A DNA stretch of 37,345 nucleotides from an uncultured Prevotella sp. (GTDB taxonomy: Bacteria; Bacteroidota; Bacteroidia; Bacteroidales; Bacteroidaceae): contig CAMJWJ010000010.1 in the NCBI GenBank assembly GCA_946409435.1, positions 1 to 37,345 of the forward strand, written 5' to 3'. Both the position numbers and the translations under genes were made by a program. The notes under the pieces are model-generated. The model ran no database searches and was not told the DNA's origin. It worked only from the letters and a program-made list of their open reading frames with translations. Below, one piece after another: positions 363 to 18,719 of this stretch (position 1 is the first letter of the stretch; every line of letters starts with the position of its first letter).

Positions 363-2543
363 TCACCGCTCCTTGACCCAGTAGACCATGCCGAAGGACT
401 TGCGCTCGCTTTCGAAGCGGTACTCCGGACGGCTGAGGATGCGGCCTATGCGCTCATAGACGTTGTCGTCCTCGGCGTAGGCACGCTTGAACACCTGTCT
501 CAGACGGGCCGAGATGTCCTTCAGCGTCATCCACTGGCCACCGGCGGGGTCGCTGTCGGGCGTGTCCTCCGGACGCTCGAAGACGGAGAGGAGTTGCTCG
601 CCGAGCTGCGAGAGACGCTGGTAGCGCTGGTTATGGGCCATGAGCGCCTGCTCCTCGTCACGCGTCAGGTGGTAGCGCAGCCGCTGCACGCTGACCTCAT
701 GCTCCAGCTGGGCGTAGAGCTGGGGGTAGTCGATGGGCGTCTGGAAGTCGATGTCGCCGTCGACGTTGACACAGATGAAACGCCGCGAGCCGGTGGGGTC
801 GGTCAGCGGCATCGTCTCGTTGGTGGTGCCGATGAACGAGGCATAGCGGCGGTGGCTGGAGTAGGCACGGCCGTAGGGCGGGCGGTACTTCAGGTCGGAG
901 GTGGAGACGAGGTACTTCAGCACGATCTGCTGGCGCTGGGTGATCTTGTCGAACTCGTCGAGGTTGATGAGTGCAAACGACGTCAGGCCGAGGTTCAGGT
1001 CGCTCTCGTTCTTGAAGTTGATGCGGTCGTTGTAGTAGCCCCGTTGCTCGCGGGGCAGCAGCATGCGGCAGAAGGATGTCTTGCCGCAGCCCTGTCGTCC
1101 TATTAATATCGGTACGAGGGCGTTGCCCGTCAGCTGTCCCTTGCCGCGCCACATGGCCACCATCGAGCGCATCCAGATGTGGAACAGGTGTGGCCACTGG
1201 TCATAGCCGGTCTTGACACGTAGCGCCAGCTCCTCCACCCTGTCGCGGCCGTCCCACTGGGGCAGATGGTCCAGGAAGTCGGTCATCGGCTCGTACAGCT
1301 CGATGTCGTTGGAGTTGACGTATCGCATGATGTCCTTGTCCCAGCAGCGCACACCCTGCGACAGGGCATGCATGGTGATGCTGTTGCGCACCTCGTCGGT
1401 CAGGTCCTGGTAGTCGAAGCCGTAGCCGGTGCGCACACGGTATTCGGCAACGCCGCGCATGACGTTCTTGCGCAGCTCGTAGTTGGCGTTGAGAAACATG
1501 TCGACCTTCATCATCAGCAGCGTCTCGGCGGGGATGTTCTTCAGCGGCCGCGCCATGCTCTTGCGGCGGCGGTAGCGCTGCTCGTGGTCCTCGCGGTAGG
1601 CGTTCTCGAAGGCTTTCTTCACCACGGCCGGTTCGCGCCCCAAGCGTATGCTGAACAGTGCCAGCCGCTGGGCCATGGCCATAGGCAGCCCGGCCTCCTG
1701 GCAGTAGCCGGCCAGCCGGGTGACGACGAGATGGGTGCGCTCGTCACGGTCGGCGATGTCGGCCGTGTCGTCGTAGGCCCTTGACAGACAGAACTCGTAG
1801 ACCAGCCTCATGGCCTGGTAGTTGTCCATGCCCGGCAGGACGGACTCCTGACGGTCGGCATAGAGCCTGACGGGCTGCACGGTGCGCGCCGTCTCGCCGC
1901 AGTCGGTATAGAACGGTTGCGACATGGGGTTGTAGAACAGTCCCGTGTCGCTGCTGACGTAGCACGACCGGTCGAGCGTGGGTTCCAGCTTTTCTACGGT
2001 GACGCCCAGCTGCATGTTATAGGCCACGCGGGCCTTCTCGTAGAGGTTGACATGAAATCGCTTCACGTCGTCGTCCTTCTCGGGCAGGCTGCCTGCCGTG
2101 CCGTCATCGGTTTTCTGTCCGCCGTCGAACAGCTCGCCGCGACAGACGATCTTCACGCTCCTTCCGCTGGCACCGACAAAGGCCAGCATGGTCTGCGGTA
2201 TCACCATGGCACCGTTGCGCACGGCCTCGGCCTCCTCATAGCCAGCGAGGTTGTTCACCTCGAGCAGCACCAGTCCGTTGTAGCTTCGCACGACGCGCTG
2301 CCTGTTTCTGTTTTCCATGACGGTTGCGAAGCACACCCTCGGCAAGTCGCGTGTGTAGTCGTCCAGTGTGCTGTCGAAAGCATCGTACTTCCGTCTCACC
2401 TCTGCCAGCGGATAGACTTCGCGCAGCCCCTTGCACTGTTCGCCATAGGTCTCCTGCCGTATCATCGCAACAAAGTCGGTGATGTCCAACTGTCTGAGTG
2501 TCTCCGCATTACGGTATTTTTTTACGATTGTCACTTTTGCCAT
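363..2543 (-). CDS. BT4734/VirE-like P-loop protein (DUF3874-type, predicted primase-helicase)
   Basis: A 726-aa protein. Residues about 50-230 resemble the BT4734-like/VirE N-terminal domain. Residues about 340-650 form a VirE/DUF3874-type P-loop ATPase: Walker A GRQGCGKTS at 482-490 (K488), Walker B LINLDEFD at 525-532, a sensor-like FIGTTNE near 570 and the arginine-containing DPTGSRRFI at 583-590. Proteins of this build occur widely in Bacteroidales and in phage or island replication modules, where VirE-like ATPases act as replicative helicase-like factors; DNA replication or maintenance is therefore the likely role. The ATG at 2543 follows a TACCTTTG box at 2573-2580 by about 30 bases. 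It is divergent from the small gene at 3159, across a repeat-rich region. Exact biochemical function is unproven. Confidence 0.8.
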   Translation of the reverse strand: MAKVTIVKKYRNAETLRQLDITDFVAMIRQETYGEQCKGLREVYPLAEVRRKYDAFDSTLDDYTRDLPRVCFATVMENRNRQRVVRSYNGLVLLEVNNLAGYEEAEAVRNGAMVIPQTMLAFVGASGRSVKIVCRGELFDGGQKTDDGTAGSLPEKDDDVKRFHVNLYEKARVAYNMQLGVTVEKLEPTLDRSCYVSSDTGLFYNPMSQPFYTDCGETARTVQPVRLYADRQESVLPGMDNYQAMRLVYEFCLSRAYDDTADIADRDERTHLVVTRLAGYCQEAGLPMAMAQRLALFSIRLGREPAVVKKAFENAYREDHEQRYRRRKSMARPLKNIPAETLLMMKVDMFLNANYELRKNVMRGVAEYRVRTGYGFDYQDLTDEVRNSITMHALSQGVRCWDKDIMRYVNSNDIELYEPMTDFLDHLPQWDGRDRVEELALRVKTGYDQWPHLFHIWMRSMVAMWRGKGQLTGNALVPILIGRQGCGKTSFCRMLLPREQRGYYNDRINFKNESDLNLGLTSFALINLDEFDKITQRQQIVLKYLVSTSDLKYRPPYGRAYSSHRRYASFIGTTNETMPLTDPTGSRRFICVNVDGDIDFQTPIDYPQLYAQLEHEVSVQRLRYHLTRDEEQALMAHNQRYQRLSQLGEQLLSVFERPEDTPDSDPAGGQWMTLKDISARLRQVFKRAYAEDDNVYERIGRILSRPEYRFESERKSFGMVYWVKER

Positions 2544-3627: not shown

Positions 3628-4545
3628 CTATATAGCCTCTGCAAACAGTTCCAACTGTCTCGCTGGCTCAGCCTCGACCCTTTCGTGGATGTCGAAATTG
3701 AAGACAAGGGCCTCGACTACGGAATGACGGTTTTCGATGTGTCCGCCGCCGTGGTAAAAGTGGTCGCGGGTGGTGATGTTGAAACGGTTCCAATAGCGCT
3801 CCACCATTCCGTTGGGACGGAAGTCGTTATGATGCCATGTTGAAAGGATGAATTTGGCGCGGGTACGACTGAGCGCTTCAAACAATTCGTGCTCGTCCTG
3901 CTCTGTCCATCCGTTGTAGTAGTCCACATAACGGCCAAAATATGGAGGGTCGCAGTAGATGATATCGCCTGCCTCGGCACGTGCTATCGTCTCGGCAAAG
4001 GTCACGTTGTTAAACTCCCATTCTCTCTTCTTAATAATGCCGGCTACGCGCTCTATCTGATTGCATATTTTGGTAACATAGGCAGGGGCGAAACGGTCAG
4101 GCTTTTTGCAGAACGGAATGTTCCAATCGCCGTGGCGATTGAAGCGCATCATCCCGTTAAAACCCGCCCGTGACAGGAAAATAAAATCGTAGGGGCTGTG
4201 CTCTGCGTTGAAACGGTCGCGCACTTCGCGGTAGTGTACATAGCCGTCCTCGTCGGACTCGGCAAGCATGCGGCTTTCCTTTTCAAGATAGGCCCGCATG
4301 GTGTACGAGGTAATCTCTCCGCTCTGTACACCACGGTAGAAATTGATAATGTGCGGATTGGTGTCGCCCACGATATGAGCACCACGCATTGGCGAATTGA
4401 AGCCAACCACGCCCGTGCCAAAAAACGGCTCAATCCAACGGGCATTCAAATCGGTACCCGAAGTCAGAATGAGGTCATTTATCCAAGGCACAAGTTTTGT
4501 CTTGATGCCTTGCGACTTGATGGGAGGAACGGTCACAGTTGCCAT
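3628..4545 (-). CDS. EcoRV-type DNA adenine methyltransferase (D12 class)
   Basis: A 305-aa N6-adenine methyltransferase. The AdoMet-binding motif EPFFGTGVVGFN is at 39-50 and the catalytic DPPY at 199-202 (D199-PP-Y202), in the order typical of D12/alpha-class enzymes. Several stretches match the remembered EcoRV methylase closely: VPPIKSQGIKTKLVP at 6-20, FNGMMRFN, PFCKKPDRFA, STWHHND and HFYHGGG. It follows the endonuclease gene by six bases and is almost certainly cotranscribed with it, protecting the host site. By homology the site is GATATC, an inference testable by base-modification sequencing. Start is the ATG at 4545, which gives the full N-terminal family motif. Confidence 0.92.
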   Translation of the reverse strand: MATVTVPPIKSQGIKTKLVPWINDLILTSGTDLNARWIEPFFGTGVVGFNSPMRGAHIVGDTNPHIINFYRGVQSGEITSYTMRAYLEKESRMLAESDEDGYVHYREVRDRFNAEHSPYDFIFLSRAGFNGMMRFNRHGDWNIPFCKKPDRFAPAYVTKICNQIERVAGIIKKREWEFNNVTFAETIARAEAGDIIYCDPPYFGRYVDYYNGWTEQDEHELFEALSRTRAKFILSTWHHNDFRPNGMVERYWNRFNITTRDHFYHGGGHIENRHSVVEALVFNFDIHERVEAEPARQLELFAEAI

Positions 4546-4551
4546 TATGCT

Positions 4552-5370
4552 CTATTCTTGGAGTTTACTTCTGATTTTCTGCTGCTTGTCAAGATACTTT
4601 TTGTACGTCTCGATGTTTTTGTAGCGCGGCTTGCCTATGCCGGCTTTCTTAGCATCGGTAGTATTGAAAAAGTTCATCCAATAGTCATCGAACACCTCTT
4701 CGCCGAGTTCAGAAAATGTACCTTTACCAGCCACCAAGTCATCAATGTTTTCCATGCCTCCGATATTCCTTGTGTTGCCACTTCCTACCTTGTCGCTTGC
4801 AATCTTCCATTTAGGCTGGACAAAGAAAATGAACTGCTCAATGACTGACTTGATGACATTAAGTTCATCAATAGTGTAAATACCCTTCTCGTTCTTGTCG
4901 GTCACGCTCTGCTTGTAAAGCATTCCTATAACGAGGTGGCATTTGTAATCATTGTAAGGATAATCAGTGTTCTTTTTGACATCGCGATTGCGGAAATACC
5001 CCCAATAGGAGCCAAGCGTCAGCCCGTTCACCTTTCGGTCGTCGCCATAGTAGCTCGATTTGAAGTCAACAGCGAACAAATTACCTTCCGCGTCCTTGAA
5101 TGTCAGGTCAGGGTAGTAATTCTGAGCCGAAGGTAGCTCAAGCATCATACCGTTTCTTTTAGCAAAGGCATCAAGATGGGGAATAAGGATGATTTCGATG
5201 ATTTTAGACACCACTTTAGTATCATTCGTAATCGTATAGACATTCTTGTCCACGTCGACAAACCCTTTAACAATCCAGTCATTGTCATTGGTCTCCAGCA
5301 GTGCCTTATATGATTCCACTTCCTTGGATAGAAGCTGTTGAAAAGTATCTTTATCCATGATTGCAGCCAT
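4552..5370 (-). CDS. EcoRV-family type II restriction endonuclease
   Basis: A 272-aa homologue of R.EcoRV. The PD-(D/E)xK core is visible: E59 in DTKVVSKIIE, D88 in QNYYPDLT, and D102-F-K104 in VDFKSSY, equivalent to EcoRV E45, D74 and D90/K92. Other family segments are TLGSYWGYFRN, QPKWKIASDKVGSGNTRNIG and DDYWMNF. The expected role is blunt double-strand cutting at GATATC; specificity is inferred. The -7 box at 5383-5390 leaves at most about 10 bases of leader before the ATG at 5370; a second in-frame ATG at 5358 (M5) is an equally possible start. The endonuclease is placed before the methylase in one transcript with no visible controller protein, an order that raises the question of how the methylase gets a head start. 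Confidence 0.92.
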   Translation of the reverse strand: MAAIMDKDTFQQLLSKEVESYKALLETNDNDWIVKGFVDVDKNVYTITNDTKVVSKIIEIILIPHLDAFAKRNGMMLELPSAQNYYPDLTFKDAEGNLFAVDFKSSYYGDDRKVNGLTLGSYWGYFRNRDVKKNTDYPYNDYKCHLVIGMLYKQSVTDKNEKGIYTIDELNVIKSVIEQFIFFVQPKWKIASDKVGSGNTRNIGGMENIDDLVAGKGTFSELGEEVFDDYWMNFFNTTDAKKAGIGKPRYKNIETYKKYLDKQQKIRSKLQE

Positions 5371-5654: not shown

Positions 5655-6476
5655 ATGTATCGAGACTTTGCCTTCATCAGCTACAGCTCGAAGGACACCG
5701 AATGGGGTAAGCGGTTGCAACGGAAACTGGAAAACTATCGCATGCCAGCAACGATATGCCGCGAGCACGGATGGCAGCGGAAGCCCATCAATCCCGTGTT
5801 CTTTGCACCGACGGACATACAGCCCGGCGGGCTGACCTCAGAACTGCAGGAACGGCTGCAAGCATCACGCAACCTCATCGTCATCTGTTCGCCCCACTCT
5901 GCACAGTCCGACTGGGTGAGCAGGGAAATCGAGTTCTTCCACCAGTTAGGGCGTACGGAGCATATCCATTTCTTCATCGTCGACGGCGATGCCGCTAAGG
6001 CGTTGTGGTACATGCAGGATATGCGCAAGCTTGCCACTGCCGAAAAGAAACCGGGTATTGACTATTCTGATCCGATGACCGTCATGCTGTACGAGAATCT
6101 GCTGTCGGTTTACCGTAAGTCGTTTGGCGATAGGCTGCCCGAATTTACCTTGGGCGGCAAGAAGTATATCGTCATTGCCATGAACAAGTGGAATTTGGAA
6201 ATGCCGCTGATGGGCTGGCTGGGCGGCTTTAATGACAGTGATGGCGAAGAGAGAACCAAAGGTCTGAAGCTGTTATATGGTGAAGATGGCAAGGTCTATG
6301 ACGACATGCACGGAGAAATGAACTACAGTTTCAATTTCACCAAGGATGGTTTCGTACCCCAGGAGGGCTACAATGTGCGTATGATTACTGTTACGCCCGA
6401 ACAGCGCCAGAAGATGGTAGCCGCCTACCACAGCTATATGAAGAAGCACAAGAAGGACAAGCAAAAAGAGAAATAG
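5655..6476 (+). CDS. Stand-alone TIR-domain protein
   Basis: A 273-aa cytoplasmic protein with an N-terminal TIR domain (about 1-150). It opens with DFAFISYSSKD and has the SDWVSREIEFF segment, in which E91 (W87-x3-E91) sits where TIR NADases carry their catalytic glutamate. The C-terminal part (about 150-273) has no recognised domain and ends in a Lys-rich tail, KKHKKDKQKEK. Bacterial TIR proteins cleave NAD or make cyclic ADP-ribose isomers in antiphage defence; activity here is predicted, not shown. It is monocistronic, lies between the RM system and an MNT/HEPN pair, and has an operator-like palindrome at its promoter. The family of TIR proteins starting this way is common in Bacteroidales as single genes, so a partner need not be adjacent. 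Confidence 0.82.
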   Translation: MYRDFAFISYSSKDTEWGKRLQRKLENYRMPATICREHGWQRKPINPVFFAPTDIQPGGLTSELQERLQASRNLIVICSPHSAQSDWVSREIEFFHQLGRTEHIHFFIVDGDAAKALWYMQDMRKLATAEKKPGIDYSDPMTVMLYENLLSVYRKSFGDRLPEFTLGGKKYIVIAMNKWNLEMPLMGWLGGFNDSDGEERTKGLKLLYGEDGKVYDDMHGEMNYSFNFTKDGFVPQEGYNVRMITVTPEQRQKMVAAYHSYMKKHKKDKQKEK

Positions 6477-6545
6477 CAATTAGCAATTATTAGTGCATAG
6501 TTGTAATTTTTTCGTGACTTTATTTGTTTATTCGGAAATTATCCG

Positions 6546-6553
6546 TATATTTG
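6546..6553 (+). promoter_or_regulatory. -7 box for the MNT/HEPN operon
   Basis: TATATTTG with TTTG at 6523-6526, 19 bases apart. The RNA would start near 6560, leaving a ~90-base leader before the ATG at 6652. Confidence 0.55.
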
Positions 6554-6651
6554 CACACGAAAGCGTGCGAAACTCGGCTGCGCCTCAGCAATTGGAGCGA
6601 GCTCCATTGCATTCGCCTTGCACGAGCCTTGCAGGCAGATAAGTGAATAAC

Positions 6652-6975
6652 ATGGACAAAGTTCAGATGATAAACCACATTAAGCAGACCGCTGCTCGCG
6701 TATTGCCTAAGGGCAGTACGCTGTACCTTTACGGTTCGCGAGCACGTGGAGATTATCATGAAGACTCTGACTGGGATTTGTTGTTGCTCATCGACAAACA
6801 GAAGCTCGTACACGAGGATTTTGAAAAGTATTCCTATCCTTTCGTTCTGATGGGATGGGACTTGGGAGCCGACGTTCGTCCCCACGCTTACACCAAGGAT
6901 GAATGGTTTAACGGTCCTCACGCCATGTTTTACTACAACGTTGAAGAAGACAAGGAGGTGCTATATGAGTCTTAA
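6652..6975 (+). CDS. MNT-type minimal nucleotidyltransferase (antitoxin)
   Basis: A 107-aa protein of the minimal nucleotidyltransferase fold. The signature GSRARG is at 28-33 and the acidic pair in DSDWD is D40 and D42, so the active site looks intact. In MNT/HEPN modules this protein is the antitoxin and in studied cases adds AMP to the HEPN toxin. An in-frame GTG at 6643 would add three residues (MNN); the ATG at 6652 is preferred as the family usually starts just before the first helix. Its 3' end overlaps the next gene by 11 bases, which implies translational coupling and a two-gene operon. Confidence 0.85.
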   Translation: MDKVQMINHIKQTAARVLPKGSTLYLYGSRARGDYHEDSDWDLLLLIDKQKLVHEDFEKYSYPFVLMGWDLGADVRPHAYTKDEWFNGPHAMFYYNVEEDKEVLYES

Positions 6976-7369
6976 TGAGAATGAACGTAATATCATTGTA
7001 ACACGCGAGTTGGAAAAAACTCAGCGGACATTCTCCGATGCAGTCTTCTGTGCCAACGAAGGAAAGTGGGAGGCAGCAGCAAATCGTATTTATTATGCGT
7101 TGTTCCACGCTATGTCTGCTTTACTTGTCAGTGACGGCCATCAGGTGAAGAGTCATAGAGGTGTCCTTTCTATGTTTGGTGAGCACTACATCAAAACTGA
7201 AATTTTCTCAAGACAAGACGGATCCTTGCTTTCTGATTTAGTACTCATGCGTGATAATGCAGACTACAACTGTTTTTTCGAGGCTGACGAAGAAAAGCTT
7301 CAGCCATATATTGAGCCCACGCGATTGCTTATTGAAAAAATTAAGCAGTATATTGCTTGTAAAGAATAA
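6965..7369 (+). CDS. HEPN-domain protein (UPF0332-like, toxin partner)
   Basis: A 134-aa helical protein of the HEPN superfamily. It shows the N-terminal helix AANRIYYALFHAMSALL at 38-54, the KSHRG segment at 62-66, and the C-terminal LMRDNADYNCFF at 94-105. The ATG at 6965 overlaps the MNT gene and removes a non-family N-terminal extension that a start at 6899 would give. HEPN toxins are usually RNases with an R-x4-6-H motif; here the usual site reads R96-DNA-D100-Y101 with no His, although R41-x6-H48 occurs in the first helix. It may be an RNase of the UPF0332 branch, a tRNA-targeting toxin, or a non-catalytic partner; the family alone does not settle this. Confidence 0.82.
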   Translation: MSLNENERNIIVTRELEKTQRTFSDAVFCANEGKWEAAANRIYYALFHAMSALLVSDGHQVKSHRGVLSMFGEHYIKTEIFSRQDGSLLSDLVLMRDNADYNCFFEADEEKLQPYIEPTRLLIEKIKQYIACKE

Positions 7370-11309: not shown

Positions 11310-11330
11310 TATATCTATAGTGGTGAAATA

Positions 11331-11367
11331 TAAATTCCACATCTTCGATTTGGAGGTGTGGGATTTA
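11331..11367 (+). terminator. Hairpin after the exported-protein operon
   Basis: TAAATTCCACA pairs with TGTGGGATTTA (11-bp, one G-U) around a 15-base loop. No strong T-run follows, so it may be a weak terminator or an RNA 3' stabiliser. The rest of 11368-11570 shows no gene. Confidence 0.45.
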
Positions 11368-11573
11368 TCGTATGTTTTCCATAGATAGTTGACGGCTCAC
11401 CATTCACGATGTTCATGCTCATTTGCCTTTGTCGAATTTCTTGGCGGCTCGGGATAGCTCAAGCAAGCTTGGCTCTCCTCTCGCTGCCACGTCATTTCAG
11501 AGTATGACGGCAAAAATATGTACAAAAACATAAAAAAAACGTGAAACAGCCAAGCATTGTCCGTTTTTTTACG

Positions 11574-11581
11574 TACATTTG
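11574..11581 (+). promoter_or_regulatory. -7 box for the SIR2-TIR/STAND/RyR operon
   Basis: TACATTTG, 47 bases before the ATG at 11628. No other such box is evident between the four genes downstream, which fits a single transcript. Confidence 0.5.
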
Positions 11582-11627: not shown

Positions 11628-13034
11628 ATGAATAAAGAGAATATCTTTAAGTCAAAAAGAGACAAGGCTAAGACGGAGAACAACCGCCAGTGGGCCACGC
11701 TCATCAACAAGATCGTCCAGGGAGAAGTGGTCCCCGTCATCGGGCCTGAGTTCATGGCAAGCTACGAGAAAGAGGATAGTGAGGACAATGGTAATGACGA
11801 CAAGAACACCGAGGAATGGGTGAACCCACATCTGGAACTCATCAACCAACTGGCTGAGTCGATGGACATTGAACCCGGCCAGCATCAGTCGTTCTCCGAA
11901 CTGCTCTACGACGACGCCTTCCCAGCCAGCGAGCGCATGGAAATCTACGACATGTTAGGCGAGGTTTTTGAACAGGAGATTGCGGCACTGAACAGGGGAG
12001 AGCTACCCCGGAAGAGAATCTTTGCACCCTCTTCACTCCTTATTAAACTGCTGAAGACCTGCAGGTTCCGTTTTGTGATTACCACATCGTTTACACCCGT
12101 CGTGGAGTATGCCATGAAAGAGATCTATGGAACGGAGAACGTACGTGTGCTGAACTTCAGCAACAACCCCTCTGGAAACGATGACATTGAGGATGTTGAC
12201 GACATCCAGAAACCGACCGTCTACTATATGTTTGGGCGCGTCTGCCGTCAAGAGAAGCGCTATGTCGTCAACGACTCCGACATGCTCTCGTTCTGCCGTT
12301 CATGGCTAAGCAACGCGCCAAAGACATTGGTGAGCGTACTGAAGGACAAGTACCTGCTGCTGTTGGGCAACAGCTATTCCGACTGGCTTTGCCGTTTCGT
12401 ATGGTACTCGATGAAGACGAAGCTGGAAACCGAGCTAAAAGGAATGGTGGTCAATCCTGCCGCCAGCGAAAGTCTGCTACAGTTCATGAAGCGCATCGAT
12501 GCATTCACGCAGCAGGACCCCAAGGCCGTCATCGAAAGAATCGACACGCTGATCGAGGCTGAGAGAGCATCCCAGGAGGAGAACAAGTTTAAGAAGCCGG
12601 AAATCAATACGGACGTCTTCATCAGTTATTCGAGAAGAGACGGCGACGTCGTAAAGACACTCTACGACCAACTGAGGGAGAAAGGACTGCGCGTCTGGTA
12701 CGACAAGGAGAAGCTGGATACTGGTGCCAAGTTCATGGACGACATCAAGCTGGCCATTCGGAAGACCAGGATATTCATCCCGGTGCTCTCTCACCACATA
12801 GAGGATGAGAAGAATGAGTCGCACCCATATAGGACAGAATGGGACACAGCGCTGGAAGTGGACTCGACCTACGGGCGGAACTTCATCATGCCTGTCTGCG
12901 AGAAAGGTTTTGACTTCTACAACGGTTGCATTCCCGAAAAGCTGCAAAGGCACAATGCCAAGGTCTACGACAAGGAGAAGCCTGATTTCAGTGAGTTTGT
13001 AAATGAAGTGTACAACTACCTAATGTCAATATAG
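11628..13034 (+). CDS. SIR2-like/TIR fusion protein
   Basis: A 468-aa cytoplasmic protein. Residues about 20-290 resemble the SIR2_2 fold: GEVVPVIGPEF at 32-42 (nucleotide loop), ITTSFTPVVEYA at 151-162 (as ITTNYD-type motifs), TVYYMFGRV at 197-205, and LLLLGNSYSDWL at 243-254. Residues about 327-468 are a TIR domain: DVFISYSRRDGD at 329-340, RVWYDKEKL at 355-363, and YRTEWDTALE at 401-410 with E404 in the catalytic glutamate region. The SIR2 half lacks the usual catalytic His (LHG is replaced by MFG) and the GAGxS loop, so it may bind NAD or a related nucleotide rather than cleave it, leaving TIR as the enzyme. The next gene starts after three bases. Predicted role: sensor or effector enzyme of an antiphage system. 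Confidence 0.82.
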   Translation: MNKENIFKSKRDKAKTENNRQWATLINKIVQGEVVPVIGPEFMASYEKEDSEDNGNDDKNTEEWVNPHLELINQLAESMDIEPGQHQSFSELLYDDAFPASERMEIYDMLGEVFEQEIAALNRGELPRKRIFAPSSLLIKLLKTCRFRFVITTSFTPVVEYAMKEIYGTENVRVLNFSNNPSGNDDIEDVDDIQKPTVYYMFGRVCRQEKRYVVNDSDMLSFCRSWLSNAPKTLVSVLKDKYLLLLGNSYSDWLCRFVWYSMKTKLETELKGMVVNPAASESLLQFMKRIDAFTQQDPKAVIERIDTLIEAERASQEENKFKKPEINTDVFISYSRRDGDVVKTLYDQLREKGLRVWYDKEKLDTGAKFMDDIKLAIRKTRIFIPVLSHHIEDEKNESHPYRTEWDTALEVDSTYGRNFIMPVCEKGFDFYNGCIPEKLQRHNAKVYDKEKPDFSEFVNEVYNYLMSI

Positions 13035-13037
13035 AAT

Positions 13038-15530
13038 ATGGATCAACAGGTTAAGGCCAATCCATGGAAAGGATTGCAGTCCTATCAGGAGAATGACGTC
13101 ATCTTCGGCCGCGACGACGAGATAAAGAACCTCTACAACCGCATTTTGTTTGACATTCAGACTGTCGTCTACGGCAAGTCGGGCATCGGCAAGTCGTCCA
13201 TCATCAACGCGGGCATCATACCAAGGGCTAAGCTTGACGACATGCTGCCGGTGGACATCCGACTGGCACATACTGTCAAGAAAGAGCAGAAGCCCACCCT
13301 ACCCTATACGGAACAAATCAAGAATAAGATAGCAGAGGCATTGAGTAGCATTGGCGGCGAAGCAGAAGATGTCACTACGTCAAGAGTGGTTGACCTGATG
13401 ACAGAGAAGAGCCCACGTTCACTATGGGAACTGCTGCACCGCTACCGTTTGTGGAAGGTCGACGACGGCATTCGCAAGCGCGTCACACCCCTGCTGCTGT
13501 TCGACCAGTTTGAAGAAATATTCACTCTTGAAACAGACAGCAAGCGTGTCGAAGCGTTTTTCTCGGAATTAGCCGACCTGCTCAACGAGGTAAAGCCCGA
13601 CTACCTGATGTCGTCTGCTGCCGTCAGCGACCACGCTCAGGCTACTGCGAAGGAGGCGGAAAGCAGTCCCAAGTCGCGCAACGTCTTCACCGAAATAGCC
13701 AGCAGAAGACGCTCTGCCAACGCAGAATACTTAGAGAAGAGCGAGTTTCACATTGTAATAACGCTACGCGAAGACTTCCTGTCGGACTTGGAGCGGCACA
13801 CGACCTATATCCCCGGCATGAAGTCGAACCGCTTTGCCATACTCCCTTTGAACGAGGAACAGGCAGCCAAAATCATCATGGAACCCGTAAAGGGCCTCAT
13901 CAGCACGGACGTTGCAACAGCCATCATACAACGTGTCACCGGCCGTACGGACTTCAAGCTCGACGGCGTGCCCGAAATCGATGTGAACGCATCGCTGCTG
14001 TCACTTTACATGGAACAGCTGTACAACAAAAAGCTGGAAAGCAATGTCAAAACCATCACCATGGCGATGGTCGAGCAATACGGCGACTACTTCATCACCA
14101 ACTTCTACGAAGAGTCCATCAAAGGCATCCCCGACGAAGTCGTGAAGATATTGGAAGAGGAACTCATCACCAATGCTGACAAACGTGACAACGTGGCACG
14201 CATTGACTTGGTAGCAAAAGGGGTTGGCGAACAATACATAGACCAGCTGCTCGAGAAAAAAGTACTGCAGAAATTCCACTACAACGACGACGAGCGCATA
14301 GAATTCATCCACGACATTCTTTGTCCGATAGTCAACCAGCGCATTCTGAACCGTGAGCAAATAAAAGAAGAAAACGAACGCCGCGAAAGGGAACAAGAGC
14401 AGGCGCAAAAGCTGAAACGGAGCCGACACGTTATAGCCGGCGTCTCAGTCGTCGCACTACTGGCACTACTGGGATTTGCCTATGCCATCTATAAATACTT
14501 CACGAAGCCTACCACCATCCTCGACGACAAGTATGCCGACGTCATACTGGTGTTCAATCCCGACAAGACCCTCGAAGGCAATCAATGGGAAGCCGACGTC
14601 GTCATTGACTTACTAAAGGACACCACAACCATGAAACTGCTTCATCCACTCACCAGCAATGACGGACGGGTACACATCAAGGGACCTGGCGCCGACACCA
14701 TCAAGATAAAGATGCTGATGGAAAAAATAGACGAGGCGTTCAAGGTAGAAGTCAAATCGCAGATAGACTGGCTGTGCCAGGAAAAGGAAGAACGGATTCA
14801 ATTTGAGAGGCCCAACATTGACAGCCTCAGGACAATGACGTGGGCTACGACACTGACACGTGACCCCAAGGCCATGTTCCAGTTTGGCGGACGTGTAACC
14901 ACCCTTAACGGAGCACCGCTAACGGAAACATTTGTCGTGCTGGGCGACAAACTGACAAGGACTGACGAACAGGGACGATTCACCATGACCATCAACGACT
15001 CCAAGGAGCTGATGGGAACAACCCTTTACCTATTTAAGAACGAATATACCCCAGGGAACGTCAGGGGTGTTGACATCCTGAAAAAGCTGAATAAGGACAA
15101 CGAGTTTGACATCACGATGAAAGTCAGGCCGGAGTACGACTCACTGTACTACCAACAACTGGACGTGGTCAAAAAGATTGCTGGGAACGAACCGCTGACA
15201 GCCAACGACTCAAGTCTCGTCGACACCTATTTCGGCAACCAGTATAGGTTCAGACACTCGAACGTGAAATCGCCCGACACGACATTCTACTATGTCTTCA
15301 AGAAGTACTCCAAGAAGGAAGAGGAAAACGAGGAAGGCAGAATATTCGGCTACTACAGGACGAATAAGGACCATAAAACGGCAGTCCCCTTCGACGGCTA
15401 CCTGCAAGAGATCGAACCTGACAATAAAACCCGCAGATGGAAGATGACCGTCATGGAATACGACAGCGTCTATAACAAGAAGCGCATCACAGGTATCATC
15501 AGGAAAGAGCATATTTATCTGAGCAAATAA
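13038..15530 (+). CDS. Membrane-anchored nSTAND1-type NTPase
   Basis: An 830-aa protein. The N-terminus NPWKGLQSYQENDVIFGRDDE (residues 8-28) is the typical lead-in of novel STAND NTPase 1, followed by Walker A GKSGIGKSS at 46-54 (K52) and Walker B LLLFDQFEE at 152-160. The NTPase and winged-helix-like part runs to about 440; a charged helix (EENERREREQEQ) leads to one transmembrane segment at about 466-490. The ~340 residues beyond it lie across the membrane or in the periplasm and include a carboxypeptidase-regulatory-like beta domain near 613-675 (FGGRVTTLNGAPL, DEQGRFTMTI). STAND proteins switch by NTP-driven oligomerisation on ligand binding. Here the repeat sensor usual in STANDs is replaced by a membrane-crossing tail, so an envelope-level trigger or target is inferred. 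Confidence 0.82.
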   Translation: MDQQVKANPWKGLQSYQENDVIFGRDDEIKNLYNRILFDIQTVVYGKSGIGKSSIINAGIIPRAKLDDMLPVDIRLAHTVKKEQKPTLPYTEQIKNKIAEALSSIGGEAEDVTTSRVVDLMTEKSPRSLWELLHRYRLWKVDDGIRKRVTPLLLFDQFEEIFTLETDSKRVEAFFSELADLLNEVKPDYLMSSAAVSDHAQATAKEAESSPKSRNVFTEIASRRRSANAEYLEKSEFHIVITLREDFLSDLERHTTYIPGMKSNRFAILPLNEEQAAKIIMEPVKGLISTDVATAIIQRVTGRTDFKLDGVPEIDVNASLLSLYMEQLYNKKLESNVKTITMAMVEQYGDYFITNFYEESIKGIPDEVVKILEEELITNADKRDNVARIDLVAKGVGEQYIDQLLEKKVLQKFHYNDDERIEFIHDILCPIVNQRILNREQIKEENERREREQEQAQKLKRSRHVIAGVSVVALLALLGFAYAIYKYFTKPTTILDDKYADVILVFNPDKTLEGNQWEADVVIDLLKDTTTMKLLHPLTSNDGRVHIKGPGADTIKIKMLMEKIDEAFKVEVKSQIDWLCQEKEERIQFERPNIDSLRTMTWATTLTRDPKAMFQFGGRVTTLNGAPLTETFVVLGDKLTRTDEQGRFTMTINDSKELMGTTLYLFKNEYTPGNVRGVDILKKLNKDNEFDITMKVRPEYDSLYYQQLDVVKKIAGNEPLTANDSSLVDTYFGNQYRFRHSNVKSPDTTFYYVFKKYSKKEEENEEGRIFGYYRTNKDHKTAVPFDGYLQEIEPDNKTRRWKMTVMEYDSVYNKKRITGIIRKEHIYLSK

Positions 15531-15537
15531 CACGACC

Positions 15538-17790
15538 ATGTACGACAAGCCACAAGGTTCAAGCACCATGAAGAAACGCTGCACAGCACTCTTCAGCGCT
15601 GTTGCCGCCGTAGCGGCCGTAGTGCTGTTTTGGTGCATGCTGGCAGAAACGACCGTCAGCGAGTGCATCATGATCGATTATCTGAGGACGTTCAAAGGCT
15701 CCTATTTGGTGGTGGGCGTCTGGTGGGTAGCATTGGTAACCTTCGTCTGTCAGCTGGGAAAGTGGATATGGCATGCCGACCGCGCCAATCGCCACAGCCT
15801 GCACGTCAGGCTGCTGGGCAGCATCATGCTCCTGCTATGGGCCACGGGATGGGTGCTGATGACACAGGCGTTTATACTGACGCAACAGGACCGACAGCTA
15901 CTCAGTGCCGAACAGCTCATCCGCCCTGCAATAGCAGCACTCAACCTCTTCGTGCTCAACATCGACAGCTACATAATCAACGCGCTCAGCGACTATCCCA
16001 AACTCAGGGGAGCCATCACGCTGACCAGCCTGCTGGCATTCCTGTGTACCATCGTCCTGTTCCTGAGCCTGGTATCCGAACGGCTACTGGCCTATCTGAG
16101 GCTGAGGTGGTCGAGGGTCAGCAAACACTGTCCGCACGTCTACGTATTCTTCGGACTCAACGAGGCCACCGAGCTGTTAGCCAAGGACACAAGAGACCAC
16201 GACCCCAAGAGCCTGAGAGTCGTGATAGAAAAGAGCGGCGACAATCATGACGACGACAAGAGCAGTTGGAACCGGGTGAAAGCCATGATGACCCACCGAC
16301 GGGAGACCTTCCGCCGGACGAGGGATGCCGGTACACTGCTCTCCCTGAGCAGTGTCGAACTGTCGGAGATAGGCGTCGGCAAGAAGGATGTCCTTGGCGA
16401 GGCGAGCATCGGGCTGGTGAAGCAGCGCATCGGCCGACTGGCCAGCATGTCCGGCGAGGACCGTAGGCTACACCTCTTCTTCCTGTCGGACGACGAGGAG
16501 CAGAACATGCTCTCGGCGGCAATCGTCAAAGGGGACGTCACTATCAGCCGCGCCAGCGAGCAGGGCGTCAAGGTGGTCATCTACTGTCATGCACGCCGCA
16601 ACAGTGTGAACCAGGTGCTGGAAGAGTCGGCACCGATGAAGAATGTGGAGATACGCCTCATCGACTCCGCAAGGCTATCGGTAGAGTTGCTGAAACGACA
16701 GGTTGAGAACCACCCCGTCAGGTACGTCGACATCGACGACGAGCGTAACCCGGGAACCGTGAAAAGCGAGTTCAACAGCCTTGTGGTAGGACTGGGTGAG
16801 ACGGGACGCGACGCCGTCAGGTTCCTTTATGAGTTCGGCGCATTCATGAGCGATGGCTCCGACAGCGAGCACGCCGAGAGAAGCCCCTTCCATTGCTACA
16901 TAGCAGACAACGAGATGAAAAACAGGGAGGGGCTGTTTGCCGCCACGGCCCCAGAGGCTGTTAAGGCAAGAAACAGCGACGGGTCGAGTCTGCTGACGTT
17001 CGTCCATGCCAACACTGGCTCAACGGCATTTGCCGACCTGCTGAACAAGATAGCCGGGACGTTGAACTACGTTGTGGTGGCCATGGGCAGCGACGTCGAG
17101 AACACGACGCTGGCGGTGAGCATCATGAAACGGCTGATGGCCAGCGGCAACAACCTGAAAAAAACACGAATACTTGTCAAGGTGGGCGGCAACCGACACA
17201 TCGGACACTTCCGTAAAATCGCGGAACACTATAACCAGATCGTCGGCAGCCCCTGCATGGATGTCTTCGGCGACTATGAAGACATCTTCAGCTATCAACT
17301 CGTGGTGGAGGACCAGTTCAGGAAGGACGCAGAGCAGTTCTACGACAGCTATCGAAAAACCATGCTGAGACGTGAGCTGACACAGAAGAGCAACTCATGG
17401 GAGGAACGGCGCGACAAGCTAACGGGCAACGGCCATCCTACATACGAGAACCTGAGGAAGCTACGCAGACAGACACAACAGGACATGAGCAATGCGTGGC
17501 ACCAGCTGACAAAGCGCGAACTGATGAAGGGTAAGACGACAAGCCAACTGATGCTCAACATGGCCATCACGGAACACCTGCGGTGGTGTGCGTCGCACGA
17601 AATGCTGGGTTACAAAAAGGGAGAAAAGACGGACGAACGGCAGCAAAGGCACAACTGCCTGGTCAGCTGGCAGGAACTGGACGAGGTCTCCAAGAGAGTC
17701 AGCGAGGAAAGCGGCACAAGCGTTGACTACAAGAAGTACGACTTTGCCGTAGTTGAAACGACTATTGCACTCATGGACAAACAACTATGA
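15538..17790 (+). CDS. Four-TM protein with two Rossmann domains and C-terminal RyR domain
   Basis: A 750-aa membrane protein. Transmembrane segments are predicted at about 16-37, 56-78, 92-114 and 159-181. A first TrkA-N/RCK-like Rossmann segment starts at 199 (HVYVFFGLNEATELLAKD) and a second at about 412 (SLVVGLGETGRDAVRFL, with GxGxxG). The C-terminus (about 670-748) is a RyR domain: AITEHLRWCASHEMLGYKKG, then RHNCLVSWQEL and YDFAVVETTIALM. Tandem Rossmann units after a membrane domain recall ligand-gated channels of the RCK type, but I see no K+ selectivity filter. The start at 15538 is seven bases after the previous stop; M11 at 15568 is an alternative. It is probably the membrane effector or receptor of the cluster. 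The stop codon lies in a heptamer array. Confidence 0.75.
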   Translation: MYDKPQGSSTMKKRCTALFSAVAAVAAVVLFWCMLAETTVSECIMIDYLRTFKGSYLVVGVWWVALVTFVCQLGKWIWHADRANRHSLHVRLLGSIMLLLWATGWVLMTQAFILTQQDRQLLSAEQLIRPAIAALNLFVLNIDSYIINALSDYPKLRGAITLTSLLAFLCTIVLFLSLVSERLLAYLRLRWSRVSKHCPHVYVFFGLNEATELLAKDTRDHDPKSLRVVIEKSGDNHDDDKSSWNRVKAMMTHRRETFRRTRDAGTLLSLSSVELSEIGVGKKDVLGEASIGLVKQRIGRLASMSGEDRRLHLFFLSDDEEQNMLSAAIVKGDVTISRASEQGVKVVIYCHARRNSVNQVLEESAPMKNVEIRLIDSARLSVELLKRQVENHPVRYVDIDDERNPGTVKSEFNSLVVGLGETGRDAVRFLYEFGAFMSDGSDSEHAERSPFHCYIADNEMKNREGLFAATAPEAVKARNSDGSSLLTFVHANTGSTAFADLLNKIAGTLNYVVVAMGSDVENTTLAVSIMKRLMASGNNLKKTRILVKVGGNRHIGHFRKIAEHYNQIVGSPCMDVFGDYEDIFSYQLVVEDQFRKDAEQFYDSYRKTMLRRELTQKSNSWEERRDKLTGNGHPTYENLRKLRRQTQQDMSNAWHQLTKRELMKGKTTSQLMLNMAITEHLRWCASHEMLGYKKGEKTDERQQRHNCLVSWQELDEVSKRVSEESGTSVDYKKYDFAVVETTIALMDKQL

Positions 17791-17884
17791 ACTGTGAACT
17801 ATGAACTATGAACTATGAACTGTGAACTATGAACTGTGAACTATGAACTATGAACTGTGAACTATGAACTATGAACTATGAACT
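17786..17884 (+). repeat. Heptanucleotide tandem array (TATGAAC/TGTGAAC)
   Basis: About 14 units of TATGAAC or TGTGAAC fill the space between the two RyR genes. The array supplies the TGA stop of the upstream gene (17788-17790) and the ATG start of the downstream one (17871, then the codons NYE). Each frame meets TGA every 21 bases, so no longer N-terminus is possible. Unit gain or loss would change spacing between stop and start. Confidence 0.85.
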
Positions 17885-18173
17885 ATTATACTCTCCACAG
17901 CCTATAGACACTTCGGACGTCACGCTGCCGGCCGAGCTGCGGGAACTGACAGAACAGATGGCTAAAAACGTCCATGAAGTATGGGCCGAGACTCGTATCA
18001 AGCAGGGTTGGACCTATGGCAAACAGCGCAACGACACGCTGAAGACCCACCCTTGTCTCGTCCCCTACGAAGAATTGCCCGAAGAGGAGAAGGAGTACGA
18101 CCGTAACACCGCTGTCGGCACGTTGAGACTCATCATGAAGCTCGGCTTCCAGATAATGCCAGTCACAAAATGA
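17871..18173 (+). CDS. Stand-alone RyR-domain protein
   Basis: A 100-aa soluble protein that is almost only a RyR domain (about 28-97): NVHEVWAETRIKQGW, TYGKQRND, THPCLVPYEELPEEEK and YDRNTAVGTLRLIMKLGF follow the family pattern closely, better than the domain fused to the upstream membrane protein. RyR domains take their name from ryanodine receptors, where they are repeated modules; bacterial examples are mostly uncharacterised and are candidate ligand-binding units. The ATG at 17871 is inside the heptamer array and is the only start that keeps the first strand; the next Met is residue 30. It is the last gene of the cluster, and pairing with the membrane RyR protein, as a soluble competitor or subunit, is inferred. 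Confidence 0.8.
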   Translation: MNYELLYSPQPIDTSDVTLPAELRELTEQMAKNVHEVWAETRIKQGWTYGKQRNDTLKTHPCLVPYEELPEEEKEYDRNTAVGTLRLIMKLGFQIMPVTK

Positions 18174-18416: not shown

Positions 18417-18719
18417 TTAATCTTTCTTTGTTCTTACGCGTTTTACCTGCTTGCCCTGCATCTTCAACAGTTCCATTGGCGATGGTTTCTGTTCGGGTAC
18501 AAGCAAGTCTAAGTTTTCAAGCATTCCAAGCGTTCTCATGACACTGATTAATAATGAGAACGAAACAGACTGTCCACTCTCTATTTTGGCGATGGTGCTC
18601 ACACCAACGCCCGATTCAGCGGCCAGTTCCTGCTGTTTCATCCCTCTTGCTATGCGATAGGCTTTCAGCCTCGTTCCGAGCCTCTTCAATATAGCTGTAT
18701 CACTAAGTTCTGTCCACAT
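18417..18719 (-). CDS. hipB: HipB-like XRE-family antitoxin/repressor
   Basis: A 100-aa DNA-binding protein with a Cro/C1-type helix-turn-helix: LGTRLKAYRIARGMKQQELAAESGVGVSTIAKIESG (helices in about residues 14-50). The C-terminal tail is basic (KQVKRVRTKKD), usual for HipB. It would repress its own operon and, in an intact module, bind and silence HipA. Here hipA is broken, so this is an orphan antitoxin that may persist as a regulator or block a related HipA elsewhere. Start ATG 18719; a TACCTTTG box lies at 18828-18835 and an imperfect palindrome at 18771-18795 could be its operator. Confidence 0.85.
   Translation of the reverse strand: MWTELSDTAILKRLGTRLKAYRIARGMKQQELAAESGVGVSTIAKIESGQSVSFSLLISVMRTLGMLENLDLLVPEQKPSPMELLKMQGKQVKRVRTKKD

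Follow-up and report, generated by a model that had tools for sequence, protein, structure and literature searches.

The window considered here, a 37,345-nucleotide stretch of DNA from an uncultured Prevotella sp. (contig CAMJWJ010000010.1), carries between positions 11628 and 18173 four genes, termed A to D, that encode a TIR protein, a STAND ATPase, a membrane protein ending in a RyR domain, and a free RyR domain. New in this analysis are the structural match of protein C to RCK-type channels, the presence in both C and D of the ligand residues of the phage RyR protein RyDEP, and a linkage of RyR genes to TIR genes beyond chance. From the genes and their domains, the TIR glutamate, the STAND motifs, the RyR ligand residues, the fold match of C and the recurrent TIR-RyR neighbourhood, where many of the RyR-bearing proteins are of the membrane-RCK-RyR type, we infer each biochemical step of the following scheme. 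B would detect phage infection and then switch on A; A would form an NAD+-derived nucleotide, a cyclic ADP-ribose (cADPR) isomer rather than only ADP-ribose (ADPR); this nucleotide would bind to the RyR domain of C, whereupon the gating ring of C would open the pore; the ensuing ion flux would stop growth, so that the phage is blocked; and D would tune, limit or end the signal by binding it or breaking it down. That the operon is built in this way, with B as the sensor, a nucleotide signal from A, C as an RyR-gated channel and D as the protein that binds or breaks the signal, has in our view an even chance of being right. We are a shade more hesitant about the broader proposal of a TIR-to-RyR immune circuit in the Bacteroidota, in which cADPR would open an RyR-gated RCK channel and the membrane potential would collapse, RyR domains would also serve as receptors fused to C39 and PrsW proteases, and free RyR domains would serve as the off switch; such a circuit would be a bacterial counterpart of the signalling by cADPR to ryanodine receptors.

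The features on which this proposal is built are the following:

11574..11581, + strand: candidate operon promoter, a TAnnTTTG (Bacteroidetes -7-type) box (pattern scan)
11628..13034, + strand: gene A, 468 aa, with a SIR2-like domain (~12072-12431) and a TIR domain (~12615-12905; E404 codon 12837-12839) (open reading frame (ORF) call, Pfam, alignment)
13038..15530, + strand: gene B, 830 aa, with an nSTAND1 ATPase (~13062-14321; Walker A 13173-13196), one membrane helix (14433-14489) and a C-terminal part of ~345 residues (ORF call, Pfam, segment scan)
15538..17790, + strand: gene C, 750 aa, with a membrane domain (pore unit ~15790-16107, loop 15931-15987, D143 codon 15964-15966), tandem RCK-like Rossmann units (~16132-17313) and a C-terminal RyR domain (~17533-17775) (ORF call, Pfam, model, fold matches)
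17871..18173, + strand: gene D, 100 aa, a free RyR domain with the ligand-type residues H35, W38, H60 and D77 (ORF call, Pfam, alignment)

As the initial annotation had stated, the four ORFs lie on one strand with intergenic gaps of 3, 7 and 80 bases, and this packing makes it likely that they form one operon with a common transcript.

In protein A, Pfam recognizes a TIR_2 domain at residues 330-426 (3.4e-19; 70 bits against a cut-off of 28) and a SIR2_2 domain at residues 149-268 (1.2e-06), the two parts of the SIR2-like TIR enzyme that had been proposed for this gene. In an alignment of 33 of the 120 listed homologs (873 found) with the window protein (n = 34), the TIR residues Y401, R402, E404 and W405 are invariant (34/34), and E404 had thus been chosen correctly from the letters alone. 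The SIR2-like part called for a correction: at the positions of the TTN and HG motifs, which we take to be the catalytic motifs of active SIR2 enzymes, it carries TTSFTP and MFG, both near invariant among the aligned proteins, and the catalytic Asn and His of SIR2 NADases are not present in this alignment. Because these residues are missing, the SIR2-like part is probably non-catalytic and A a TIR enzyme only; its use as a second NADase was consequently dropped from consideration. The best solved relatives of the A family profile are the bacterial TIR proteins 7uwg ('Molecular chaperone Tir'), 7uxr and 8g83 (AbTIR, which we take to be a maker of 2'cADPR), along with SARM1. Among collections of defence and phage proteins, the ThsB models of PADLOC matched only the TIR part of A (best E 1.2e-08), with zero PADLOC matches for B, C and D; no curated Thoeris model passed its cut-off (ThcB4 reached 22 bits, with a cut-off of 220); and the PHROGs matches, to A (its TIR part) and to C and D (their RyR parts), were all to families of unknown function, with none for B.

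Protein B is a STAND protein with a membrane segment, in line with what had been read from the sequence: it has an nSTAND1 domain (PF20703; 1.1e-30, 108 bits), a Walker A motif (GKSGIGKS, residues 46-53) whose lysine is the previously singled-out K52, a Walker B region (LLLFDQFEE) and a single hydrophobic helix (residues 466-484), while no effector domain was found by Pfam. A search at E<=1e-30 traced A to five of 201 genomes in a family sample and to five of 393 in an order sample, with the window in both and nine genomes in total. A STAND gene follows A in all nine, so A and B are a stable pair. The STAND partners differ in size, with 830 aa for the window protein and a maximum of 1641 aa at locus L141 (some are clipped at locus ends), and in their C-terminal part, which for example holds LRR and WD40 repeats in L103; this variation fits the expectation for sensors. 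An RyR gene lies inside the same 20 kb in five of the nine A-bearing genomes and somewhere in the genome in eight, and within the family sample RyR is carried by all five genomes with A, compared with 26 of the 196 others.

The initial annotation had described C as a protein with four transmembrane segments, two Rossmann units and a RyR domain. A high-confidence structural model bears out the two tandem RCK-like Rossmann units; the membrane part needed correction, as its hydrophobic segments (residues 17-35, 56-77, 90-114, 132-150 and 160-178) make up four helices plus a re-entrant, pore-loop-like segment (132-150). The C-terminal RyR domain scored 1.7e-05 and 25.4 bits with Pfam, below the cut-off of 27.4, and 29.1 bits, above it, in a whole-genome search; TrkA_N was not called by Pfam on C itself. 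The model matches the folds of RCK-gated cation channels, GsuK and the CASTOR/DMI1 rings, and also TrkA, with GsuK being the top channel match and spanning both the membrane and the RCK parts. Since this fold search of the whole model barely covers the RyR part, the missing RyR row in it is uninformative. When the membrane part is taken alone, P-loop channels fill 45 of the 50 rows of a structure ranking, but the E values obtained with Foldseek are 0.2 or worse. A GxGxxG-type motif is kept, with G418 and G423 invariant in an alignment of 44 of 53 homologs and the window protein; segments of the C loci were aligned separately (60 of 77 segments, plus the window). The filter region is unusual, and the TVGYG filter of K+ channels was not found in the pore region of C. 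In a related RCK-RyR family (p513), six of the eight membrane-bearing members have D(P/T)G(S/N/V) at the pore position, a sequence that presumably resembles the CASTOR filter. The TVGYG filter is likewise missing in CASTOR (PMC6697748). Taken together, C is predicted from its model to be an RCK-type cation channel.

Protein D is the free RyR domain that had been proposed (PF02026; 2.6e-38, 130.6 bits) and matches the RyR repeats of animal ryanodine receptors. A preprint of May 2026 reports that phage RyR proteins counter Thoeris, that the phage RyR protein RyDEP cleaves cADPR, and that six of the eight phage RyR domains tested bound 2'/3'cADPR, with no cleavage except by RyDEP (PMC13232231). 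When gp78 from the phage record was aligned, its four ligand residues corresponded to H35, W38, H60 and D77 of D, at the same spacing as in RyDEP, and to H680, W683, H705 and D735 of C. Counted over the distinct RyR domains from the loci only, the H, W, H and D are kept in 83, 82, 81 and 81 of 83 C-type domains, in 43, 43, 37 and 43 of 43 free domains, in 19, 19, 14 and 19 of 19 domains fused to C39 peptidases, and in 15, 15, 13 and 12 of 15 p513-type domains (two of the latter are gapped there). The catalytic pair (H75, D117) is thus present in D by alignment. Since the other homologs in the preprint showed no cleavage, this pair leaves both options standing, and D may be a hydrolase or a sponge for the signal. 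Free RyR genes accompany A and B in loci L162 and L163, where C is absent from the fetched 20 kb. This tips the balance somewhat towards a role of D on the signal itself, and not just within a complex with C as its subunit, although each of the two genomes contains one more RyR reading frame, a longer one, at another place.

No relatives of C were found in viral contigs, plasmids and phages at the limits used, and none of D in viral contigs by short patterns derived from a single sequence, a search that involved no alignment-based scan. Two records deposited as phage (L166 and L167; MT837259 and MT836850) contain RyR proteins with 67-71% identity and look like pieces of bacterial chromosomes. 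As their ORFs are of bacterial type judging by the translations (glycosyltransferases; a TonB-type receptor, FecR-like and sigma-factor-like proteins), they were not counted, and a reading as phage counter-defence was dropped. In Cellulophaga phage phi38:1, the RyR-domain protein gp081 is methylated during infection (PMC13288928); in the setting of a phage that infects the same phylum, gp081 might serve naturally as a sponge for such signals or as their hydrolase.

The association of RyR with TIR was examined in several samples. Among the 201 genomes of the family sample, 31 have RyR, 59 have TIR_2 and 13 have a match to C; two of the C matches cover the RyR part only, which leaves C proper in 11 genomes, the window included. 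TIR is present in 26 of the 31 RyR genomes and in 33 of the 170 others. Nineteen of 40 RyR clusters (the window among them) have a TIR gene within 15 kb, against an expectation of 1.5 derived from genome size and the number of TIR genes, a calculation that ignores kinship, takes all genomes as 2.8 Mb and leaves out one frame-broken RyR piece (G193:C33:1551). As a partial control only, N6_Mtase genes were looked up in the same 201 genomes, and none of the matches listed was seen by eye on an RyR contig. From 116 relatives of C, 80 in named genomes were kept, which gave 76 loci at 90% identity and 40 whose flanks reach 8 kb or more on either side. In these 40 non-redundant loci, a TIR gene lies within 8 kb in 29, invariably on the strand of C; another RyR gene is found in 26, and a TIR or another RyR gene in 33.

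The search for the same four genes elsewhere, which the initial annotation had put forward, gave a divided answer. Six other loci (L027, L031, L059, L083, L103, L138) combine A, B and C with a further RyR gene, whose product exceeds the length of D in L083 and L103 and is of D size in the other four. Gene order varies among these loci. At L053, C is separated from A by 9.6 kb and from B by 10.9 kb, and a separate RyR gene was not detected. The exact four-gene order is therefore not conserved: A and B are one module and the RyR proteins are others that reshuffle among loci, and the notion of a fixed four-gene system was abandoned.

Outside the family, 27 of the 395 genomes of a phylum sample carry RyR, the window included. 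Twenty of them belong to one genus, and none of the 20 has a TIR gene on its RyR contigs; in the three loci fetched from it (L191, L195, L197), two tandem RyR domains end a protein labelled ATPase-like from a Walker A motif, a tandem pair that resembles the animal receptors. At the six other RyR sites of the phylum sample (two from one genus), TIR lies within 7 kb in five, with 0.09 expected at 15 kb. The RyR proteins of the four of these five that were fetched, all from distant genomes, combine TrkA_N with RyR (TrkA_N is over its cut-off in all four and RyR in three, with 18.7 bits in L196), preceded by two N-terminal hydrophobic segments in L193, L194 and L196 and by one over the threshold in L192. 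The TIR gene abuts the TrkA_N-RyR gene on the same strand in L192 (gap 4), L193 (gap 23) and L194 (overlap), and in L196 lies ~3.6 kb beyond it, past one FGE-type gene on the same strand and another ORF. The TIR proteins of L193 and L194 end in WD40-type propellers, which are likely sensors. The core pair thus looks like a TIR protein with an RyR-RCK membrane protein, and the window would hold a variant in which STAND is a protein of its own and a free RyR is added. The earlier suggestion of a conflict system in which RyR reads a TIR-made nucleotide and acts on the membrane has gained from the RyR-TIR co-location in two samples and from the six further loci, and from the nucleotide binding by phage RyR domains that share their ligand residues with C and D; the nucleotide, its binding, the conduction and the phage defence are predictions.

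Several points speak against the proposed mechanism. The pore match of C is weaker than the RCK match and weak on its own; 21 of the 40 RyR clusters are out of reach of any TIR gene, with contig ends close to some of them; clustering is a general property of defence genes; and the ligand of RyR may vary, because on a Priestia plasmid (NZ_CP128553; L188) a free RyR gene adjoins, on the same strand, genes for a Pycsar effector and a nucleotide cyclase domain, and a TIR gene lies 1.4 kb further along. This plasmid favours the idea, unlikely in our judgement and yet deserving attention, that the architecture is as proposed and that RyR reads another nucleotide, be it linear ADPR, His-ADPR, an NADP-derived or a cyclic nucleotide; the place of AbTIR, the presumed 2'cADPR maker, among the closest solved TIRs to the family profile of A argues in the other direction. 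Macro-type Thoeris effectors, which bind ADPR and IAD and not 2'/3'cADPR (PMC11204291), would agree with this idea, while the 2'/3'cADPR binding by six of the eight phage proteins in the preprint (PMC13232231), through residues kept in C and D, disagrees with it. Distinctly unlikely, in turn, is a scheme in which A is a plain NADase effector, the RCK Rossmann folds of C sense a fall in NAD(H) or a rise in ADP(R), and RyR has a structural or tuning role. GsuK has been solved with ADP and with NAD bound, and the GxGxxG-type motif of C with its invariant glycines would suit this scheme; it sits poorly with the RyR ligand residues that are kept throughout the C homologs, and with the fact that RyR, not RCK, is common to the channel-like, C39-peptidase and PrsW fusions.

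That the operon serves stress or ion homeostasis instead of phage defence is quite improbable. RCK proteins commonly regulate K+, which would suit such a role; against it stand the patchy spread of C proper (11 of 201 genomes), the nearby restriction-modification, second TIR and HEPN genes, and the reshuffling of the modules with caspase, CHAT and STAND partners. We consider it very improbable that C lacks a pore and is a receptor tethered to the membrane, with D as a subunit that pairs with its RyR domain in the manner of the RyR repeats of animal receptors. The weak Foldseek pore match and the unusual filter region are compatible with it, as is the free RyR gene that 15 of the 76 non-redundant loci have no more than 300 bases from C; it is at variance with the GsuK match through the membrane and RCK parts, with the P-loop ranking of the membrane part, with the D(P/T)G(S/N/V) sequence of the p513 members, and with the free RyR beside A and B in L162 and L163, even though both of these genomes hold another RyR protein elsewhere.

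RyR domains also have other partners, identified with Pfam for one or two examples and with profiles for the rest. RyR or C loci include TIR-FGE with CHAT proteins, TPR with caspase and TIR proteins, RyR-C39 peptidases, and both PrsW and RyR-PrsW fusions. RyR-C39-like peptidase fusions occur in L024 (3164-4655; the one run through Pfam), L038, L040, L066, L083 and L088. The gene immediately upstream almost invariably encodes a partner of ~184 residues, none being seen in L150, and fusion and partner are a candidate second RyR effector module. The intramembrane protease PrsW is fused to RyR in L175 (9404-10474) and L178 (9638-10675). A recurring row in metagenome-assembled genomes of the Bacteroidales comprises C, TPR, caspase/LRR, TIR, RyR and metallophosphatase-propeller genes (L054, L055, L057, L058, L063; Pfam on L054 only).

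With respect to its setting, the single promoter box that had been claimed for the operon was recovered by the pattern scan: TAnnTTTG, which we take to be the Bacteroidetes -7-type consensus, occurs at 11574-11581 as the sole plus-strand copy between 7666 and 12227. A terminator-like hairpin (11330-11368) lies behind the gene upstream of the operon; relative to shuffled sequences, such hairpins are not in excess in the region (8 found, 8.0 expected), nor are sigma-70-type promoters (10 found, 7.2 expected). The next gene past D encodes an HTH_3 regulator (18417-18719, minus strand) and points at the end of the operon. Upstream lie a type II restriction-modification pair (3628-5370, minus strand), formed by a D12-class adenine methyltransferase beside an EcoRV-type restriction endonuclease, and a second TIR gene, which matches both TIR_2 and ThsB_TIR, with a HEPN-domain gene behind it (5655-7369, plus strand). 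Positions 363-2543 (minus strand) encode a BT4734-like/VapE-type protein, a kind typical of mobile elements.

A 2015 nucleotide-centric survey by Burroughs and colleagues reportedly treats bacterial RyR domains, and an earlier forecast of an RyR-nucleotide link at the domain level may exist. Among the open-access literature matches listed, only the phage preprint (PMC13232231) ties RyR to TIR signals, and none gives a tested role for the RyR domain of a host bacterium. Such a role is predicted by the RyR domain that membrane-RCK proteins and proteases have in common in the vicinity of TIR genes. If the proposal is true, a ligand-gated ion channel would be a new class of effector in TIR immunity, and the long-standing question of whether ryanodine receptors respond to cADPR via their RyR repeats becomes testable in a small bacterial protein.

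Among the known systems, Thoeris (ThsB TIR with a SIR2-SLOG or TM-macro ThsA) resembles the operon in pairing a TIR protein that has the catalytic glutamate with an effector that has its own predicted nucleotide-binding domain, and the TM-macro type also acts through a membrane protein (PMC11204291). The operon differs in its predicted receptor (RyR), its effector (a predicted RCK channel) and its separate nSTAND partner. As Pfam detected neither a SLOG nor a macro sensor domain in A-D at E<=1, and no Thoeris model passed its cut-off, we do not class the operon as Thoeris. CBASS and Pycsar are likewise set apart, with no CD-NTase or cyclase among A-D by Pfam. B shares with the AVAST/nSTAND sensors an nSTAND1 ATPase and a variable C-terminal part, and departs from them in having no effector domain by Pfam and in its pairing with the TIR protein A. 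The phage RyDEP proteins (PF02026) have, like D, an RyR domain with the four ligand residues at the same spacing; the RyR domains of the operon are encoded by the host, and host RyR genes frequently neighbour TIR genes and in many cases encode fusions with other domains. C has in common with the CASTOR/POLLUX/DMI1 and GsuK channels a pore-like unit followed by two tandem RCK units, to which it adds the C-terminal RyR domain, another filter sequence and a place in a row with a TIR gene; compared with the two-helix pore unit of GsuK, it has two extra N-terminal helices. Unlike the animal ryanodine receptors, of which C is not a member, its channel fold is of the RCK type, and no ryanodine-receptor domains other than RyR were detected in A-D by Pfam; what it shares with them is the RyR domain on a predicted ion channel and the link to ADP-ribose signals.
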